A DNA stretch of 45,710 nucleotides from positions 1 to 45,710 of IMG/VR virus record IMGVR_UViG_3300021142_002250; one strand, 5' to 3'. The translations under genes were made by a program, and so were the position numbers. Source of the DNA: a virus. Shown here piece by piece: positions 21,798 through 39,312 of this stretch. Positions within the stretch are counted from its first letter, which is position 1, and each line of letters begins with the position of its first letter. A model generated the notes under the pieces. That model was given only the letters and a program-made list of their open reading frames with translations, ran no database searches and was not told the origin of the DNA.

Positions 21798-23186
21798 ATG
21801 AAAACATATACTGAAAAATTTATTGATAGTCATAAAATACTTAAAAAAGCTATAGTAGGTATAGAATTTGAGTTTTTTATGAAAGAATTATCTTATTATA
21901 AAACTTTAGAGATACTTAATCAATATTTATCTCCTATAAAAGTTCATGGGTTTCGTGTTTATCATCCAGATTTTAAACCAGATAAGGATAATTTTATTCT
22001 TTCCCCAGACTTGAGCGGTGGAAATTCCCTCGTAGAACTAATAACATCTCCATTAGATTATTATAGTGCCAAATTCTATTTGGTTAAAATAGTAAAATTT
22101 ATTCAAGATTATGGATATACAAATGAAAAATGTTCAGTCCATTTTAATATTTCCTTTGATAAGGATAAAGATATTGATTTAGATTTAAATGACTTAAATA
22201 TGCTTAAATTAATTCTTGAAATTGATGAAGAAGAAATTTATAGATACTATCCAAGTAGAAAAGATAATGTATATGCTAAAAGTGTTAAAAGAATGATTCC
22301 TTATAAAGAATATGACTTTAATAGTATATCAATTGATATAGTTAAAAATAATTTAAGATTACCTAACGATAAATATTATGGAATTAATTTTTTAAATATT
22401 AATAATGATAGAGAATCTCAAAGATTAGAGTTCAGATATATTGGAGGACAAGACTATGAGAAAAATGTGGGTAATCTATTATATTTTTTAGACAAGTTTA
22501 TTTTAAATACTTTTTATTGCCTTAATAAGCCATTCACAGATACTAATATGCAAGATTTAGAGAATTATTTAGATAAAAATATAAGTTATTTTAATACTTT
22601 TTCAAAATTTGATAATTTTATCGTGGAGTTTCCAGGTATAGCAATTCAAATTGACCAAATAAATGATTATGATGTTATTAATGCTTATTATCCTAAACTA
22701 TATACAAAATTATATAATTTATTAGATTCTTGTCAAGATTTGAAAAATTGTATAATAAATTATGTTACAGAAACACAAAAAATTGAAATAATTGATGCTA
22801 CAATAAAATCTAATTTTAATATTAAAAATTATGACTTTATTAATTGTAATGTCCAAAATGGTATATTTGAAGAATGTGGATTTGTAAATTCAGAACTTTA
22901 TAACTCACAAGTTATAAAGTGTAGATTAGATGGAACTAAAATAACAGGTTCTAAACTATTAAATTGTCATATGGAATCTTATTTAGTTAAGGATTCATTT
23001 TTTATGAATGGTTATATAAACTGTGAGATGGAAAATGGGGTGTTTCGCAGTGGAAAATTAGGTCCTTATGCTAGTATAAGTTCAACTACAAAAATAGTAT
23101 CTGATAAAGATAATTTCTTTGATACTAAGTTTGATGATAGTAGTTTAAAGAAAAAAGATATAGGAAATAAAAAACTCGGTTTATAA
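21798..23186 (+). CDS. Amidoligase-like protein fused to a pentapeptide-like tail
   Basis: A 462-residue protein. The N-terminal 320 or so residues match the outline of the amidoligase (COOH-NH2 ligase) family: GIEFEFFM at 21-28, LVELITSPLD, SVHFNISFD and RLEFRYIGG, the Glu/His-rich positions expected to bind ATP and metal. That family joins a carboxylate to an amine and includes peptide-tagging and cell-wall enzymes. Residues about 345-430 form a ladder (NCNVQNGIFEECGFVNSELY ... FFMNGYINCEMENGVFRSG) like that in the giant fibre. The N-terminus (MKTYTEKFIDSH) loosely resembles the T4 capsid-targeting start MKTYQEF. The gene ends inside a terminator hairpin shared with the convergent Hef-like gene. 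The enzyme call is moderately sure; the tail may target it to virions. Confidence 0.65.
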   Translation: MKTYTEKFIDSHKILKKAIVGIEFEFFMKELSYYKTLEILNQYLSPIKVHGFRVYHPDFKPDKDNFILSPDLSGGNSLVELITSPLDYYSAKFYLVKIVKFIQDYGYTNEKCSVHFNISFDKDKDIDLDLNDLNMLKLILEIDEEEIYRYYPSRKDNVYAKSVKRMIPYKEYDFNSISIDIVKNNLRLPNDKYYGINFLNINNDRESQRLEFRYIGGQDYEKNVGNLLYFLDKFILNTFYCLNKPFTDTNMQDLENYLDKNISYFNTFSKFDNFIVEFPGIAIQIDQINDYDVINAYYPKLYTKLYNLLDSCQDLKNCIINYVTETQKIEIIDATIKSNFNIKNYDFINCNVQNGIFEECGFVNSELYNSQVIKCRLDGTKITGSKLLNCHMESYLVKDSFFMNGYINCEMENGVFRSGKLGPYASISSTTKIVSDKDNFFDTKFDDSSLKKKDIGNKKLGL

Positions 23187-24977: not shown

Positions 24978-24993
24978 AATTTCTATATTTTAA

Positions 24994-25029
24994 AAAAAGC
25001 AATAAGTTTCTAAAAACTTATTGCTTTTT
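24994..25029 (-). terminator. Terminator downstream of the DHH gene
   Basis: A perfect 16-bp stem AAAAAGCAATAAGTTT / AAACTTATTGCTTTTT with a four-base loop, followed on the minus strand by a T-run. It begins two bases after the DHH stop codon. Confidence 0.88.
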
Positions 25030-25031
25030 AT

Positions 25032-26615
25032 TTATTTTTTAAATTTCTTAACAATATCTCCTGAAGGAGTTATTGTTCTTAAATCTTTTATATCTCTTAC
25101 TTTATTATCCATTTTTGGTTCTTCTTTTATTTTATTTAACATCCACTCATTTCCTGGTAACTCCTCTACTAATTGCCATGATATATTTATCGGAAATTTA
25201 ATACCTGATAGATCATTTATTATTTTATTTTTAAACATATCTACATACTTTATTCCTTTATAAGGACCAACTTGACATATTTTTGATATATTCGAGATTG
25301 AACCTATACCACTATGACCTCCAGATACTGTTACTTCATCTTCTACTCCTGATGTAGTTTTTGGATCATAATAATCTAAACCACCCCCAATATTTTTTCC
25401 ATCTTTTTCTATATAAGGTTTTTGAAAATTTTTTAATAACCTATTCATATAAGATCCTAAATCATCAACTTTATAGTTACCTACTAAAATTGGTAAATCT
25501 GTATAAGTATCAATTTTCTTATACGAACATACTTGTAATGTAGTACCATAATCTAATAAAATAAATTTAGGTTCTTGTTTTAAACGATTATTATTTAAAT
25601 CTCTCTCAATAATAACTCTGGCTCTTAAAGCGTTAGCCCAAGTTCCTGATGGAACTATTATTAAATCACCATACACTTTATATGATTCTAAGCATTTTAT
25701 TTTAGTATTATTATTAATTCCAAAATCTTCCTTAAACTCTTTAAATGATAAATATTTTCTTTTTATGGTTTCAATTCCTGAAGTTCTTTTATTCATTATA
25801 TCCAAAGTTTTGGTTCTATCTTCAACAAAATCTTTATAAGGTTTTGTTGGTTTTTCCCATTTTCCTTGATCATTTTTAAAACTTTTTAATGTACCATCTG
25901 CTTTAGTTGGGTAAGGATTATTACCTGGATATAATTTTTTCATTGCTATATAAATAGCATAAATTGATGCATCACTACAATTTTCAACCACTTCAATTAA
26001 GGTATTTATATCAGCTCTTTTTATAAATTGATTAAAAGCAGCTCCAAATTCCAATCTTACTTTTTTATATCTTTTTATATCTTTTAAATCAAAATTTAAT
26101 AATCGTTGCCAACTTATTTCATAATCATCATATTTAGCAGCATCTACCATATCTATAACATGAACTAATAACTCATCTTGTGGTACACCTAAAACTTTAC
26201 ATAATGCTTCATATGCAGAACCTGTATGTAATTTTTGTATAGGTTCAGATTTATATTTTTCTTTCTCTGCATCTGTAAATTCACCATGATGGTCTACATA
26301 AAAATCTATATAAGCATCTCTTTTATCTCCTGGCATATTAGCAAAATCTAAAACAATATTAATTAATGTTGGGTCAATTGTTGTTAATTTCCAAGATTCT
26401 TCATAATTTAATATCCCATATTTAACAATAGTAAATCCATGATTAATTAAATATTTTTTCATACATAACATACAGGTAATTCCATCTAAATCATCATGGC
26501 CATATAATGCTACATACTTACCTTTTTTTCCTTTTTTTAACCAATAATCTTCACTATTAGGCAATCTTGCTGCTGATTCATTAACTGAACCATATTTATT
26601 AAATTTATTTACCAT
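25032..26615 (-). CDS. DHH-family phosphoesterase
   Basis: A 527-residue protein with the DHH family motifs: HDDLDG at 40-45 (motif I), LDFANM near 89-94, the DHH signature VDHHG at 107-111 and, near residue 435, GGHSGIGS corresponding to the DHHA1 GGHxxAxG motif. The family cuts phosphodiester or pyrophosphate bonds (RecJ, NrnA oligoribonuclease, c-di-AMP phosphodiesterase). It is longer than NrnA (about 320), with an insert containing YPGNNPYPTKADGTLKSF. The N-terminus (MVNKFNKYGSVNESAA) resembles a head-targeting peptide, so it could be a virion protein. A TTTAATATATAA motif is 19 bases upstream and a strong terminator follows. Confidence 0.85.
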   Translation of the reverse strand: MVNKFNKYGSVNESAARLPNSEDYWLKKGKKGKYVALYGHDDLDGITCMLCMKKYLINHGFTIVKYGILNYEESWKLTTIDPTLINIVLDFANMPGDKRDAYIDFYVDHHGEFTDAEKEKYKSEPIQKLHTGSAYEALCKVLGVPQDELLVHVIDMVDAAKYDDYEISWQRLLNFDLKDIKRYKKVRLEFGAAFNQFIKRADINTLIEVVENCSDASIYAIYIAMKKLYPGNNPYPTKADGTLKSFKNDQGKWEKPTKPYKDFVEDRTKTLDIMNKRTSGIETIKRKYLSFKEFKEDFGINNNTKIKCLESYKVYGDLIIVPSGTWANALRARVIIERDLNNNRLKQEPKFILLDYGTTLQVCSYKKIDTYTDLPILVGNYKVDDLGSYMNRLLKNFQKPYIEKDGKNIGGGLDYYDPKTTSGVEDEVTVSGGHSGIGSISNISKICQVGPYKGIKYVDMFKNKIINDLSGIKFPINISWQLVEELPGNEWMLNKIKEEPKMDNKVRDIKDLRTITPSGDIVKKFKK

Positions 26616-33294: not shown

Positions 33295-33910
33295 TATTAA
33301 ATTAGAAAAAATAAGAAATAAAATTATTGAATTTGCTAAAAGTAATGATTTAGGAGGGTATCAAGATTATGTAGATACATTAGTAAAAAATGGATCTAAC
33401 CAATATTTACAAACTATTTTTATTACAGATTATAATATCAATTATAAAAATTTTAGTACAATTGATATTATGAAAAAAAATACATTTAATATTATTCGCT
33501 TAATTGCTTGTAATAACTTAGAACAAATTGAAATAAAAACTTTCTTAGACCAAAATAATTTAAAACAAATAGGTAAAGATATTATTGTTAATACAGGAAC
33601 TTATTCTGGTAAACATTTAGGAAAAATTGAAATATCTGATATAAATCCTAACGATGTTTATTATACAAGTCAATTTATTTATAATTTTACAGGACAAAGA
33701 GATTTTTATAGTAAAATGGAATTATATAGTGTAACTTATTCCTATACAGGAACTTATAGTAATGGGAATTGGATTAAAGAAGATTTGAAAATGGACATAA
33801 CAGATAATGTAGTTACTACATACAATAATGGTATTGTATTATCAATAACTACATACTCCAATACTATACCTTATTTAGATAAATATAAAATAATAATAAA
33901 TAGTTTATAA
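33284..33910 (+). CDS. Hypothetical protein
   Basis: A 208-residue protein, helical for the first half (LEKIRNKIIEFAKSNDLGGY) and strand- and Tyr/Thr-rich in the second (YSVTYSYTGTYSNGNWIKED), similar in composition to the fibre proteins. It overlaps the upstream gene by 11 bases and the convergent nuclease gene by six. Probably expressed with the putative head-internal protein. No family was recognised. Confidence 0.55.
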   Translation: MLNNIKLEKIRNKIIEFAKSNDLGGYQDYVDTLVKNGSNQYLQTIFITDYNINYKNFSTIDIMKKNTFNIIRLIACNNLEQIEIKTFLDQNNLKQIGKDIIVNTGTYSGKHLGKIEISDINPNDVYYTSQFIYNFTGQRDFYSKMELYSVTYSYTGTYSNGNWIKEDLKMDITDNVVTTYNNGIVLSITTYSNTIPYLDKYKIIINSL

Positions 33911-34642
33911 CTTATTATTTAAGTATTCTTCTAATGTAGAAGATAAATCATGTGCTTTATATATTTTAGCAGGTTCATTTGGACCTATATGAACAAGATA
34001 ACATGCTTTAATATCTATATCAACTTCTTTAAGAAGTAGTTTATATAAACTAACTTGAATTGAGTATTCATTAATATGATTTTTATAGAAACTATCTAAA
34101 GGAGCTAATAATTTTTCAAATTTACCTTGTTCATGATCATCATGTGTCATTTGTTTATTACTTTTCCAGTCTAATATAAAAATCTTATCATTCCAAACAA
34201 AAATAGAATCTATCATACCGGCTAATTTCCACTTTTTAGAGAAAATTCTTTGCTCAAATCTGATAGGTTCTAATTTATGTAAATATTCAGCATATAGTAT
34301 ATTGAATTTATTTATTCTATCCACTATATCTAAATCATTTGGAATTTTTTGAAGAACTCCGTTAAAATAATTTTCTATCCAATTATGGATACCATTACCT
34401 ATAACTTGGGATCTTTCTGCTAATTGTTTCCACTCTAAAAGAATTTCTTCTTGAGAAACTCCTTTTTCTTCGGCTTTTTTCTTAGACCAAAAATCTTCTT
34501 CAAACTTTTTATAGAATCTTTCTTTGTATTTAGTTACACTTGTAAAGACTTCTCCCTCATATGTATAGCAATGCTTTTTTGGATCAAATTTGAATAAAGG
34601 GTCTTCAAATTTCTTTAATTTTTCTAAAATAGAATTTCTCAT
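33905..34642 (-). CDS. PD-(D/E)xK nuclease, RecB/Cas4-like
   Basis: A 245-residue protein with a RecB-type nuclease core: GNGIHNWIENYF at 82-93 (the H/E helix), Glu130 in RFEQRIFSKKWKLAGMIDSI, Asp145, and ILDWKSNK at 156-163 (the D-x-K motif), then YSIQVSLYKLLL (the Q-x-x-x-Y motif). These match the metal-binding residues of RecB, AddB and Cas4-like nucleases. It probably trims DNA ends in recombination or packaging with the gp46-like ATPase. The start ATG lies inside a 15-bp hairpin (34629-34666). No FeS-cluster cysteines, so not a typical Cas4. Confidence 0.82.
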   Translation of the reverse strand: MRNSILEKLKKFEDPLFKFDPKKHCYTYEGEVFTSVTKYKERFYKKFEEDFWSKKKAEEKGVSQEEILLEWKQLAERSQVIGNGIHNWIENYFNGVLQKIPNDLDIVDRINKFNILYAEYLHKLEPIRFEQRIFSKKWKLAGMIDSIFVWNDKIFILDWKSNKQMTHDDHEQGKFEKLLAPLDSFYKNHINEYSIQVSLYKLLLKEVDIDIKACYLVHIGPNEPAKIYKAHDLSSTLEEYLNNKL

Positions 34643-34666
34643 AAATCGTTATATGAGAAATTCTAT
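34629..34666 (-). promoter_or_regulatory. Hairpin burying the start codon of the PD-(D/E)xK nuclease
   Basis: A perfect 15-bp stem ATAGAATTTCTCATA / TATGAGAAATTCTAT (minus strand) with an eight-base loop. The ATG is the second to fourth base of the 3' arm, so initiation would require opening it. Confidence 0.75.
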
Positions 34667-34685
34667 AAAAAGTTTAGAAAAAATA

Positions 34686-36515
34686 TTAGTTTTCTGAATT
34701 ATTATCACTTTCATCAGTAGATGCTTGATTATTCACAGACATTTGTTGAACTAATTCTTGAAGATATGGGGTCATATCAGGGTATAATCTACCATTAGAG
34801 TTATACCTACCAATAGTTGTTAACCAACCATCCCAAATACTAGTAAAATCTCCTGTTAAAGTATCAGTAAAGTTAGTTGTAATACCTGTAAGTGACTGAT
34901 CTGTTATAGAAACAGTTTCATTAATATTTGAAGGAGCAACATAATTAACATTAGTTTCAGTTGTACTAACACCAGGACTTCTATATCCCGATCCTCTTCT
35001 AGAGGATGGAGTTCTTCTTCTTGGAGAAGTTGTTAAAATTGGGGCTTCATCTTCACCATTTGATTCGTTATCTTCGATAACCCTTCTTTCATACATTGAA
35101 GTATTTTGAGGTTCAATACCTGATACATATTCTCTAAGAATACTATCTTCTCTTACTGCTCTTCCTTCGGATTGACGAGAAACTAATGGATCTTCTGATC
35201 TTATTGGAGCAGAATCTGCTGATTCTAAATCAAATTCTTCACCTATAAGATCACCAAGATCTTGGATTGATTGACTTTCATTTCTCAATGATTTTAACAT
35301 TTCTCTTTTCTTATTAATCCCTTCCGCTTGTTTTTTTCTTTCAGCTAAAACAAGTTCAATTTTTTCTTTATCATTAAATCTATCATATTCTTCATTAAAG
35401 ATATAATCATCTAATGAATAGTCATACTGAGCATGAGCTTTTAAGATATAACAATCGTAAATATAAGAATGATAAACATTACCATGATATACTCTTATAT
35501 CATTTAAGTAACGAAGTTGTGTCGTATCATTTCTATGATAGATAACTCTAGTAATTTCATCAAAGCAATAATCAGAACCTTTATTTAAATAACCTTCTGT
35601 TGAGTTCATAATTTTTAAGTTAAAAACTCCATCAACAGGATAGTTATATAATGTAGAATTATTTACATCAATAAATTTAAATGTATCTAAATAAGGGAAA
35701 TATTTGTAATTTGTGTTAAGATTTACTGATAAGTATAAATCTACTTTTTTACCATCTTTTTCAAACCAAACAGAATTGCTAAAATTCTGTTCTTGTTTGA
35801 AGTAATATCCATTAGTTTTTGCCCAATTTTTAAACATACTTGCATAAAAATCGTCATTTGTAGTGTAAATTCTATCCATTATTTTATAAGAACTTTTTTC
35901 AGAAGTAGTATTTTCCGCTTCTATATCCCATAATAATGCTCTACCTATTAAGCGATTATTATCTTTATCTAAAAGACATAACAAACTAACTTCTTTATTA
36001 TCTATATAAATAGAGAAGTAGTCTTGACACCTATCATGTTTCATACATGATCCACCTAATGATCCACATAAATCATCATTTATGTTTCTATTATAAGACC
36101 TATGATGATAGTAGTATTTAATATCTTCACCTTTTACTACTTCAAATTTTACTTTGTTTTCAACTTGACAAGAACGATATACATTAGAAAAAATTTCCAC
36201 ATCTTTAGGAGTAAGAAAATTCATAATTGTTTTGTCAAACAACTTTGAAATTATTTTAGCAGGGGAAATATGATACCTTTTTCCTGAACTCCAATACTCA
36301 TTCTCATTAATTGACCCAATTCTATCACAACTCAAATAAGAAATTTTATTTGAATCTGCTTCAGATATAGATAAATAATCTACACCATTTTCTATTACAG
36401 GTAAAGAATGACCTTCTTTTGAAGATTCCAAAATAAGATTAGCAACAGTAGATGACGATTTTATTCTCTGCAATAACTCACAAAGACCTTCTGATATTTT
36501 TATTATTTTGCTCAT
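34686..36515 (-). CDS. Large phage protein with disordered C-terminus, unknown
   Basis: A 609-residue protein. The first 390 or so residues form an ordered domain with GSLGGSCMKHDRCQDYFSIY, Cys-rich DLCGSLGGSCMKHDRC and VSLLCLLDKDNNRLIGRALLW, which has a conserved feel, and a Tyr-rich region (YYHHRSYNRN). Residues 415-609 are low complexity, with Ser/Arg/Glu-rich segments (SPRRRTPSSRRGSGYRSPG), likely disordered. I have seen proteins of this outline in other large phages but cannot name a function. It starts at an ATG inside TCATATATGA. Confidence 0.55.
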   Translation of the reverse strand: MSKIIKISEGLCELLQRIKSSSTVANLILESSKEGHSLPVIENGVDYLSISEADSNKISYLSCDRIGSINENEYWSSGKRYHISPAKIISKLFDKTIMNFLTPKDVEIFSNVYRSCQVENKVKFEVVKGEDIKYYYHHRSYNRNINDDLCGSLGGSCMKHDRCQDYFSIYIDNKEVSLLCLLDKDNNRLIGRALLWDIEAENTTSEKSSYKIMDRIYTTNDDFYASMFKNWAKTNGYYFKQEQNFSNSVWFEKDGKKVDLYLSVNLNTNYKYFPYLDTFKFIDVNNSTLYNYPVDGVFNLKIMNSTEGYLNKGSDYCFDEITRVIYHRNDTTQLRYLNDIRVYHGNVYHSYIYDCYILKAHAQYDYSLDDYIFNEEYDRFNDKEKIELVLAERKKQAEGINKKREMLKSLRNESQSIQDLGDLIGEEFDLESADSAPIRSEDPLVSRQSEGRAVREDSILREYVSGIEPQNTSMYERRVIEDNESNGEDEAPILTTSPRRRTPSSRRGSGYRSPGVSTTETNVNYVAPSNINETVSITDQSLTGITTNFTDTLTGDFTSIWDGWLTTIGRYNSNGRLYPDMTPYLQELVQQMSVNNQASTDESDNNSEN

Positions 36516-36529
36516 ATATGATTTTTTAA

Positions 36530-36808
36530 TTAATTGTAATACTTTAATCCTAATTTTGTACCATCCCCATAAATATAACCAATTACGTTATATTTAACTT
36601 CACCATTTAACCTCACTAAAGCCATCAAATAATCAGGATTATGATCCATTGATGATCTAGATAAATGGTATTTAACACTACCAGGTGAAGAAAGTATTTC
36701 TTTCATCCACGGTAAGTTTAATAAATCAGAAAGTGAATTTATTTCACTTTCTACTATTTCGCCTTCTCCCAAGACGTATTTTTTGGGGAGATTTCTTATT
36801 ATTTTCAT
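36530..36808 (-). CDS. Hypothetical protein
   Basis: A 92-residue protein (MKIIRNLPKKYVLGEGEIVE ... GEVKYNVIGYIYGDGTKLGL) that is mixed helical and strand. Start at CATATATGA. It lies six bases downstream of the macro-like gene and 14 bases upstream of the large unknown gene, in the same transcript. No family was recognised. Confidence 0.55.
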   Translation of the reverse strand: MKIIRNLPKKYVLGEGEIVESEINSLSDLLNLPWMKEILSSPGSVKYHLSRSSMDHNPDYLMALVRLNGEVKYNVIGYIYGDGTKLGLKYYN

Positions 36809-36814
36809 ATATGT

Positions 36815-37264
36815 TTATTTTATAAGTTTAGAGAAATTGTATTCAAATACAATATTATCAGGTATATTTCCTGCGACATAAAACAACTTTGCTAAGTTTT
36901 TTATTTTACGACCATTAAGAGTTTTACTTTCAGGATTTATTCCTGAATAAGCTACATAGAATAACAAATCTTGATTAGATATTGCACATTCATATAACTT
37001 TTTTATATTATTGATTAATGTAGCATTTGTTATATACACTCTTGGTGCTATAACAGTCACCAATCCATATGCTTTTTTATTTTCAGAAAAGCAATTTATC
37101 ATTTTTTCATCTTGCCTAATTCCAAATTCTAAATGTGCTACTAATGCAGCTCCACCAGTTCCTCTATATGGATTTCCATTTATTGAAACTGTATTTGAAC
37201 CAAAAACAAAAATACCATTTTCGGGCATTGTTTCTTTATTTAGATCTCCTTTGTAAGTTTTCAT
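36815..37264 (-). CDS. Macro-domain-like protein
   Basis: A 149-residue protein with ENGIFVFGSNTVSINGNPYR, then GTGGAALVAHLEFGIRQDEK, like the macro-type families whose F-G-S-N...G-x-G-A-A loop binds ADP-ribose or related ligands. Later LVTVIAPRVYITNATLINNI fits the continuing strand/helix alternation. Such proteins bind or hydrolyse ADP-ribose, consistent with NAD-linked defence or counter-defence. The divergent sequence means the ligand is uncertain. The ATG sits in a short 8-bp hairpin (37258-37279). Confidence 0.6.
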   Translation of the reverse strand: MKTYKGDLNKETMPENGIFVFGSNTVSINGNPYRGTGGAALVAHLEFGIRQDEKMINCFSENKKAYGLVTVIAPRVYITNATLINNIKKLYECAISNQDLLFYVAYSGINPESKTLNGRKIKNLAKLFYVAGNIPDNIVFEYNFSKLIK

Positions 37265-37279
37265 AATATTATATGAAAA
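37258..37279 (-). promoter_or_regulatory. Hairpin burying the start codon of the macro-like gene
   Basis: TTTTCATA / TATGAAAA (8 bp, minus strand) with a six-base loop; the ATG occupies the 3' arm directly after the loop. Weaker than those at 34629 and 37796. Confidence 0.5.
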
Positions 37280-37311
37280 ATTTTTATTTTAGTTTTTTCA
37301 AAAATTGTAGG

Positions 37312-37809
37312 TTATTCTAACATTTTATTTATAATAATCTCTCTGTGAAGTCCAACTAAAGTATTTTTATTAAATTTTATTTTATTTTCCCCTTGTGTCA
37401 AGAAATAATTTTCTTTTGATTTACTTATTTTAAATAAAAGGTAATCCCACTTTAAATTAAAAATCTTTTTAATTAGAGCAGCGGTATTACCTATGATGAT
37501 GACAACATACTTATCAGAATTAATTATTTCATCTGATATTTTATTTTCTTTTATTAATTTATTTAAGGATGGTTGTGTATAACACCAAAATACAGTAAAA
37601 AAATTTTTATTTGTATCTAAATAATTATATAATCCTGAGCTATAAGCATTATTGCTTGTGATGATATTTAATACACCTTTATTTAATCCTAAGATTGATT
37701 TTTCTAAAGTTTTATCATAGCATGATTTTGCTACACGTAGAAATTCTTTCCAATCAATTTGATTTATATCTTTTTCTAATTCTGTTTTTAAATAATCTAT
37801 ATTTTCCAT
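37312..37809 (-). CDS. Hypothetical protein
   Basis: A 165-residue alpha/beta protein (MENIDYLKTELEKDINQIDW ... LNIITSNNAYSSGLYNYLDT ... YVVIIIGNTAALIKKIF). No family was recognised. It lies 30 bases downstream of the gltX stop on the same strand, so it may be on the gltX transcript. The ATG is inside a perfect 15-bp hairpin. Confidence 0.55.
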   Translation of the reverse strand: MENIDYLKTELEKDINQIDWKEFLRVAKSCYDKTLEKSILGLNKGVLNIITSNNAYSSGLYNYLDTNKNFFTVFWCYTQPSLNKLIKENKISDEIINSDKYVVIIIGNTAALIKKIFNLKWDYLLFKISKSKENYFLTQGENKIKFNKNTLVGLHREIIINKMLE

Positions 37810-37831
37810 ACACTTATATGGAAAATATAGA
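37796..37831 (-). promoter_or_regulatory. Hairpin burying the start codon of the gene at 37809
   Basis: A perfect 15-bp stem TCTATATTTTCCATA / TATGGAAAATATAGA (minus strand) with a six-base loop. The ATG again begins at the second base of the 3' arm. Confidence 0.75.
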
Positions 37832-37839
37832 ATAAGTTG

Positions 37840-39312
37840 TTATTGTAAAGTTAATATTTCTTTTGAAATAACAAAATTAGTTAATCTTGAAATAATTTCA
37901 TCTTTTCCTAAAATGAATATACAAGATTTAACATCTACTCCTTGTATACCAAAAAGTATAGTTTTTCTTAAAAATCCTAAAAAAGAATTTTTTAATTCAT
38001 TGATATTCATAAAATGAATGATTATATTTTCTAATTCTGATTTAGAATTCCAATCATATGATAATAAATGTTTTTCAAAACTTGTTAAAAGTTCTACATC
38101 TGAATCACTCAAATCTATTATATTTCCTCTATTGAAAATTTTATCTAATTCAGTTTTAATATCATGTCTAAAATGACATCTTTTCTTTACTTCCGTAAAT
38201 AAAATATCTTTTTGTTCATCACTAAGATGAACAAATTTATCTCCAAATAAATTATCATTAGATATTTTATGTTGAATCCACTGACTATTAATCCATTTAG
38301 CCTTATCAATATCAAATCTTGCGCCTGATTTGCTCACATGTCCTAATGAAAAACTTTCAATTAATTCATCCATAGTAAGAATATCTCTTTCATCCCCTGG
38401 ATTCCAACCAATCAAAGATAGAGCATTGATTAGAACTTGTGGTTCAAATCCAAATTCTCTCCAACCTTTTTGGTAGTTTCCATTAGAATCTGTATATCCA
38501 ATTGCAGAAATCGGAATACCATATTTTGCTGATGTTCTTTTTGATAATTTACCTTTTCCATCAGGATTCATTATTAGAGGTAAATGTGCAAAAGTTGGAA
38601 CATCCCAACCAAATGCTTGATACAAAAGTACATGCATTGGAGTAGAATTAATCCATTCTTGACCTCTAAGAACGTGAGTAACACTCATATCGTGATCATC
38701 ACATACATTACATAAGTGATATGAACCAATACCATTAGATTTTAATAAAACTTTATCATCTAATGTAGCGGTGTTAATAGTGATTTCACCTAAAATAGCA
38801 TCAGTAAAACTGACATCAACATTTTCGGGAGTTTTAAATCTTATTACATAATGAGCGCCACTATTTAATAGATTAGTTACTTCATCTTTAGATAAAGTAA
38901 GAGAGTTTCTCATGGTATTACGAGTAGTATAATCATACTTAAGACCTTTTGCTCTTAATGCTTCTCCTTCTTCTGGTGTGTCAAAGCTATAATACGCCAT
39001 CCCATTATCTAATAGATATTGTATTTTTTGAGAATAATCTCTTTCTGACTGTATGAATGAACCTACACTTGGATCTGGATTCCAATATGAATAATCAGGA
39101 GTAATACCTAACCATTCAAGAGTTTCTTGAAAATGAGGTAAGAATTCTGGTGTACACCTTTCTCTATCAGTATCTTCTAAACGAACTAAAAACTTACCAC
39201 CTAATTTCTTAGCTAAGAAATAGTTGTATAATAAAGTTCTTACATTACCTAAATGACAGAAGTTTGCTGTATTAGAAGGTGCTAAACGTGTTGTAATTGT
39301 TGAGTTAATCAT
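37840..39312 (-). CDS. gltX: Glutamyl-tRNA synthetase (GluRS), full length
   Basis: A 490-residue class I aminoacyl-tRNA synthetase. The nucleotide-binding start reads RLAPSNTANFCHLGN with HLGN (20-23) at the HIGH position and VRTLLYNYFLAKKLGGKFLV after it. LEDTDRER follows, then CDDHDMSVTHVLRGQEWINS, and KLSKR (255-259) at the KMSKS position. The C-terminal 180 residues form the anticodon-binding helical cage. FDTPEE, RNSLTLS and YVIRFKTPE are typical of Bacteroidetes enzymes, pointing to acquisition from such a host. It would charge tRNA-Glu. No tRNA gene is seen nearby. The HIGH and KMSKS variants look functional. A TATATTTG promoter lies 69 bases upstream. Confidence 0.95.
   Translation of the reverse strand: MINSTITTRLAPSNTANFCHLGNVRTLLYNYFLAKKLGGKFLVRLEDTDRERCTPEFLPHFQETLEWLGITPDYSYWNPDPSVGSFIQSERDYSQKIQYLLDNGMAYYSFDTPEEGEALRAKGLKYDYTTRNTMRNSLTLSKDEVTNLLNSGAHYVIRFKTPENVDVSFTDAILGEITINTATLDDKVLLKSNGIGSYHLCNVCDDHDMSVTHVLRGQEWINSTPMHVLLYQAFGWDVPTFAHLPLIMNPDGKGKLSKRTSAKYGIPISAIGYTDSNGNYQKGWREFGFEPQVLINALSLIGWNPGDERDILTMDELIESFSLGHVSKSGARFDIDKAKWINSQWIQHKISNDNLFGDKFVHLSDEQKDILFTEVKKRCHFRHDIKTELDKIFNRGNIIDLSDSDVELLTSFEKHLLSYDWNSKSELENIIIHFMNINELKNSFLGFLRKTILFGIQGVDVKSCIFILGKDEIISRLTNFVISKEILTLQ

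Follow-up and report, generated by a model that had tools for sequence, protein, structure and literature searches.

Start-codon hairpins around a putative leaderless promoter in an exonuclease gene of huge phages

Why would a phage bury the start codons of some of its genes in hairpins? The question is raised by a virus record of 45,710 nucleotides (nt), IMGVR_UViG_3300021142_002250, which was analyzed over its full length (the window) and has 23% G+C (77% A+T). A preliminary description of this DNA had reported inverted repeats of 15, 8 and 15 base pairs (bp) at the starts of the genes beginning at 34642, 37264 and 37809. Our analysis confirmed all three, on the minus strand, with the ATG occupying bases 2-4 of the 3' arm. 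The gene at 34642 encodes an exonuclease, and we consider it likely, from sequence comparisons, that its hairpin acts as a lock on read-through messages, formed around an internal leaderless promoter. The genes, each taken to start at the first ATG in its long open frame, and their hairpins are:

33905..34642, minus strand: PD-(D/E)XK exonuclease gene, 245 amino acids (aa); Pfam PDDEXK_1 (5e-6), PHROG 298 exonuclease (8e-29).
34629..34666, minus strand: exonuclease start hairpin, 15/15 bp, ATAGAATTTCTCATA-TAACGATT-TATGAGAAATTCTAT, loop TAACGATT; ATG at 34642 in the 3' arm; folding z-score -6.7; covariation in relatives.
34616..34685, minus strand: weaker outward continuation of this inverted repeat, TTTTTCTAAA / TTTAGAAAAA, 13 nt, 92%.
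36815..37264, minus strand: gene of 149 aa; PHROG 2072, function not assigned.
37258..37279, minus strand: its start hairpin, 8/8 bp, TTTTCATA-TAATAT-TATGAAAA; TATAAT 9 nt and AAAAC 32 nt before the ATG; folding z-score -2.2.
37312..37809, minus strand: gene of 165 aa, no family match.
37796..37831, minus strand: its start hairpin, 15/15 bp, TCTATATTTTCCATA-TAAGTG-TATGGAAAATATAGA; TATAAG 9 nt before the ATG, poor -35 box; folding z-score -7.5.

Three of the 44 gene starts in the window have a stem of at least 8 bp with the ATG in the 3' arm, against 0.10 expected from shuffled upstream regions, and none of 2000 shuffles produced more than two. Stems of at least 15 bp were seen twice (0.0 expected). 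Both 15 bp hairpins are far beyond chance, also in RNA folding, and the one of 8 bp at 37264 is marginal. The preliminary description had held that so precise a repetition of geometry in unrelated genes was improbable; this overstates the case, given the marginal third hairpin and the lack of divergent homologues for the 37264 and 37809 genes, and the geometry itself is partly forced, because a 3' arm opening with TATG requires CATA opposite. The second part common to the three hairpins, TATAA 9-11 nt before the ATG, resembles a promoter box, and much of the shared geometry follows from TATG pairing and the position of this box. Comparison of the 149 aa and 165 aa proteins revealed no kinship between them. 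Two neighbouring starts, at 36515 and 36808, both carry CATATATG, a palindrome of 8 bp over the start codon, and have no stable RNA structure (predicted opening costs of 1.3 and 0.6 kcal/mol).

Exonuclease homologues were taken from viral contigs at 40-66% identity, giving 16 distinct members including the window, which are not independent of one another. A start hairpin is present in 11 of them (window, L116, L118, L120, L121, L122, L126, L128, L130, L131 and L133) and weak or missing in L124, L125, L127, L134 and W01. The stems comprise several unrelated sequences. Since MAFFT aligns the start regions without regard to structure, we assessed covariation by swapping the arms, each upstream region being combined with each coding start. 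Own pairs averaged 12.8 and foreign pairs 7.6, and none of 20,000 permutations reached the observed mean of 12.81 (maximum 11.35). One stem position is A-U in L130, G-U in G002 and G-C in G003. These comparisons point to a pairing that is kept while the arm sequences vary, the arms changing together; covariation, proposed earlier as a check on the idea, is strong for this gene. Among 2,273 starts of the scanned genomes ranked by opening cost, the exonuclease start came 4th in G002, 5th in the window and 9th in G003, and the 37809 start of the window 6th.

The exonuclease hairpin lies across the elements of a promoter, downstream of a gene on the same strand:

34669..34676, minus strand: middle-promoter -35-like box TAAACTTT, 34 nt before the exonuclease ATG.
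34648..34653, minus strand: middle-promoter -10-like box TATAAC, 11 nt before the ATG, in the hairpin tip and loop.
34686..36515, minus strand: upstream co-directional gene, 609 aa, function not assigned; ends 43 nt before the exonuclease ATG.

In twelve of the homologues TAAAC precedes the start by 32-34 nt and a TATAA or TATATA box by 10-15 nt. This is the arrangement of a leaderless-type middle promoter, and the hairpin encloses its -10 box, which lies in the apical 5' arm and the loop. Eleven of these 12 carry the hairpin, against none of the four that lack the spacing (L125, L127, L134 and W01), a link with a Fisher probability of about 0.003 (worked by hand, shared ancestry not corrected). 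Like the hairpins, their covariation and the promoter motifs with their spacing, it was computed directly. In LR756502 (L027; ~26014-26060, minus strand) a hairpin with a TATAAT box lies instead over the ATG of a 14-codon open reading frame, which overlaps the exonuclease start; we count this in favour of the same reading. Transcription of the window gene would begin at 34642, the A of the ATG. With the -10 box inside the hairpin and the start at the ATG, only read-through RNA would contain the 5' arm, and the gene's own mRNA would lack it.

The leaderless reading of this spacing draws on the promoters of the related phages at large. At the gene level the window is akin to uncultured phage genomes of 0.6-0.74 Mb (LR745206 and LR756501-LR756504) and to IMG/VR contigs. 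Three promoter motifs were found, namely host-type TAnnTTTG, TAAACWW-N17-TATAA and TTAATATATA, each with two modes of distance to the ATG, which for the last two are separated by a trough. TAnnTTTG peaks 12-13 nt before the ATG (32 and 17 cases, against 1.7 expected per position) and again from 24 nt. In Flavobacterium johnsoniae the same box has been measured with its T at -12 and its G at -5 (PMC6847099), so that the first peak would mean transcription from the A of the ATG. Bacteroidota chromosomal loci have a small equivalent peak (9 at 12 nt, against 0.5). TTAATATATA peaks 14-15 nt before the ATG, with its TATATA at 10, and then at 23-40 nt. Position +10 of TATATA is A in 74% of the distant class, presumably the transcription start, and in the near class this A is that of the start codon. 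For TAAACWW-N17-TATAA, TAAAC peaks at 32-34 nt and again at 45-51 nt. The near mode of all three motifs thus has the spacing expected of leaderless messages, with a putative +1 at the start codon. Of the largest proteins sampled, most of those behind the middle motif act in replication (topoisomerase II, SbcC-like, DNA polymerase, DnaB, helicase), ligases and HNH nucleases are among those behind the host motif, and the sole named late-motif gene encodes a portal protein. Judged by these functions, TAnnTTTG would be early, TAAACWW-N17-TATAA middle and TTAATATATA late. The exonuclease promoter belongs to the middle, replication-gene class and not to the late one.

The late-type TTAATATATA promoter stands before many genes of the window, either at leaderless spacing or 20-35 nt upstream (near starts at 21798, 20863 and 32419; farther ones at 26615, 28734, 40626 and 43323). 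Three starts elsewhere, G008 111891(-) and 46743(-) and G003 104078(-), have strong hairpins with a late-type leaderless promoter in the loop. At G001:30597(-) the inverted repeat consists of two facing TTAATATATA boxes, a pair that a repeat search mistakes for a start hairpin. A phage-encoded multi-subunit RNA polymerase was considered and set aside, as no RNA polymerase beta domain was found in 9 records (single-subunit polymerases were not searched for).

Among the exonuclease homologues, hairpins accompany a co-directional upstream gene without a terminator, L116 being an exception. The members with an antiparallel neighbour upstream (L124, L134) or an intervening terminator (G008, W01) all lack a hairpin. 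Host-type TAnnTTTG promoters stand before the upstream genes in several relatives, and in the window the 609 aa gene would be the source of read-through into the exonuclease. The predicted cost of opening the start in read-through RNA is 10-17 kcal/mol in 7 of the 11 hairpin members (14.8 in the window), and in leaderless RNA it is 0-3.3 kcal/mol, the genome median being 2.3.

The mechanism that we propose is as follows. Messages from an upstream promoter would carry both arms, and the start codon, buried in a stem of 14-20 bp, would go untranslated. The gene's own middle promoter would begin the message at the A of the start codon, with no leader and no 5' arm, leaving that codon free and usable as a leaderless start by host ribosomes. 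With the start buried in read-through RNA and free in its own mRNA, the nuclease would be made only when its own promoter fires, being off during early transcription and on once the middle promoter becomes active. The transcription start sites, the repression in the cell and its timing are what we infer here. Active mRNA with 5' ends inside the hairpin is what the lock model predicts, and such ends would identify the mechanism, not disprove it. Of the ways of opening the switch suggested earlier, the choice of transcript 5' end, in the manner of phage T4, is well supported for the 34642 gene by the covariation and the conserved promoter inside the hairpin.

Several observations weigh against the lock. 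L124 has a leaderless promoter and no hairpin, and L116 has a hairpin despite a preceding terminator. The early promoter of the upstream gene that is visible in several relatives is not seen in the window. The opening cost is only 1-3 kcal/mol in L118, L120, L128 and L133, members with a weak stem or with the start at or close to the loop; in L118, L120 and L133 the loop contains or adjoins the start codon. About 31 of 39 leaderless middle genes have no hairpin, so that a lock would be gene-specific. The -35 box at 37809 is weak (88.9th percentile of gene starts). Finally, the benefit of delaying the nuclease is a guess, protection of incoming phage DNA being our candidate.

The same device probably operates at 37809 and 37264, less surely than at 34642. 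Divergent homologues of the two genes were looked for and none was found, and for this reason the reading draws on structure and position only. One further gene bears on it:

37840..39312, minus strand: glutamyl-tRNA synthetase-like gene (Pfam tRNA-synt_1c, 2e-73).

It heads the co-directional run and would read through into the 37809 gene. The competing explanation is that the 8 bp hairpin at 37264, and perhaps that at 37809, arose by chance from 77% A+T or from overlapping TATA boxes and start codons. We regard this as rather unlikely, though a serious contender: the weak folding z-score of 37264 (-2.2), the lack of divergent homologues for both genes and the nearby CATATATG starts without structure all fit it, but 15 perfect pairs at 37809 would not be expected, and the 37264 start is in the top 2.5% of gene starts for middle-promoter score.

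For the exonuclease itself, translational coupling would offer a different account, in which ribosomes finishing the upstream gene melt the hairpin and the nuclease is translated from a polycistronic message in step with its neighbour. Most hairpin members do have a co-directional upstream stop 30-57 nt before the ATG, often the TAA within TAAAC, and a ribosome terminating there could overlap the 5' arm. Moreover, in LR756502 the 14-codon frame and the exonuclease start share an ATGA overlap. Coupling is possible only with an upstream stop no more than about 10 nt from the 5' arm, however, whereas in the window and L131 the stop is ~20 nt before the main stem, and in L116 the start is 112 nt past the upstream stop with a terminator between. 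It also leaves unexplained a conserved promoter at exact leaderless spacing. We therefore think coupling improbable, and opening by upstream translation, one of the earlier suggestions, is less favoured than the choice of promoter.

Opening by a phage protein, another of those suggestions, fares worse. A protein, perhaps the exonuclease, could bind to the hairpin in its own message after the manner of the MS2 coat protein, and a start codon in the 3' arm is indeed the MS2 arrangement. Stem and loop sequences are not conserved, though, beyond the TATA box and the demands of CATA/TATG pairing; the mRNA proposed here would lack the 5' arm; and the members with leadered promoters, whose mRNA would hold such an operator, have none. 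We judge a translational operator very improbable. Hardly to be credited is an element read on DNA, whether a palindromic operator or a cruciform or hairpin promoter: the repeat does overlap the promoter, but the arms vary freely among relatives with pairing kept, most other genes with the same promoter lack a palindrome, and N4-type hairpin promoters are short and sequence-specific.

The read-through lock, the reading that we prefer, does not extend to most genes. A scan of the starts in this genome and its relatives, as had been proposed, revealed other strong start hairpins, but they are rare, and conservation is clear in the exonuclease family only. At about one such hairpin per several hundred genes, a genome-wide rule of hidden starts is ruled out, as is CATATA as an operon-specific operator, which shows no clear enrichment before starts in relatives. 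Across leaderless promoters in general, start hairpins exceeded expectation only modestly (8 with scores of at least 11, against 2.6 with swapped upstream regions); in the middle class without the exonuclease the corresponding figures are 2 and 0.2. A possible second family combines start hairpins of differing sequence with middle-type promoters (G008 342916(-), G002 17044(-) and W02 part 105705(-)). More broadly, these huge phages may run their early, middle and late programmes largely via leaderless mRNAs in all three classes, with promoter-enclosing hairpins generally tying the translation of chosen genes to the promoter used, a generalisation that we offer tentatively and hold to be somewhat short of probable.

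The host is likely to belong to Bacteroidota, for the window phage and its relatives alike, because the cellular relatives of the glutamyl-tRNA synthetase, among the loci returned, are Bacteroidota and the host-type Bacteroidota promoter box is frequent in the related phage genomes. The phage-borne synthetase shares ~40% identity with Bacteroidota enzymes. Near-identical copies of the window region occur in two further contigs. The search for exonuclease homologues in host genomes found none, and no solved structure matched the protein by sequence. For the 609 aa protein encoded upstream, several huge phage genomes contain 7-14 matching places each, and Cellulophaga phages give distant matches. 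A 16 bp hairpin between co-directional genes of the window (~24985-25020, minus strand), AAAAAGCAATAAGTTT-TTAG-AAACTTATTGCTTTTT, is a probable terminator.

Hairpins that silence read-through messages have so far been known from a handful of T4-type genes. The same logic would now appear in unrelated huge phages, for a replication-class nuclease under leaderless transcription, and the hairpin is missing from natural variants that have no read-through or no leaderless spacing. No earlier report of the arrangement in huge phages was found in the literature searched, whose coverage was partial. The results also suggest that sequence can tell the temporal promoter classes of uncultured huge phages apart. 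To our knowledge Bacteroidota lack Shine-Dalgarno sites, and the exonuclease start offers a handle on leaderless translation in this phylum.

Among known systems, the MS2/R17 replicase operator hairpin likewise has its AUG in the 3' arm; unlike it, the hairpins described here have variable loops and stems, give no sign of a binding protein and would be absent from the gene's own mRNA. Leaderless mRNAs are found in bacteria, for example Mycobacterium. In Deinococcus-Thermus their -10 region is adjacent to the open reading frame (PMC12340547), and in F. johnsoniae 87% of predicted transcripts have leaders of more than 10 nt (PMC6847099). The phage genes resemble bacterial leaderless mRNAs in having a -10 box ~10 nt before the ATG and a putative transcription start at the start codon, and differ in occurring in phage genomes, in three promoter classes and in combination with a hairpin. 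In the T4 genes e, soc, 49 and I-TevI hairpins sequester the start, and a late promoter lies within the 5' strand or close to it (Uzan and Miller 2010, PMC3014915). As in these genes, the start would be hidden in a long read-through transcript, here by prediction and covariation, a promoter in the 5'-strand region would yield a transcript without that strand, and the arrangement is conserved in relatives. In contrast to the T4 cases, which have late promoters and Shine-Dalgarno leaders, the promoter is of the middle class with its own -35-like box and the mRNA probably leaderless, and the gene is a replication-class exonuclease of Bacteroidota-type huge phages, with no sequence kinship to the T4 examples.

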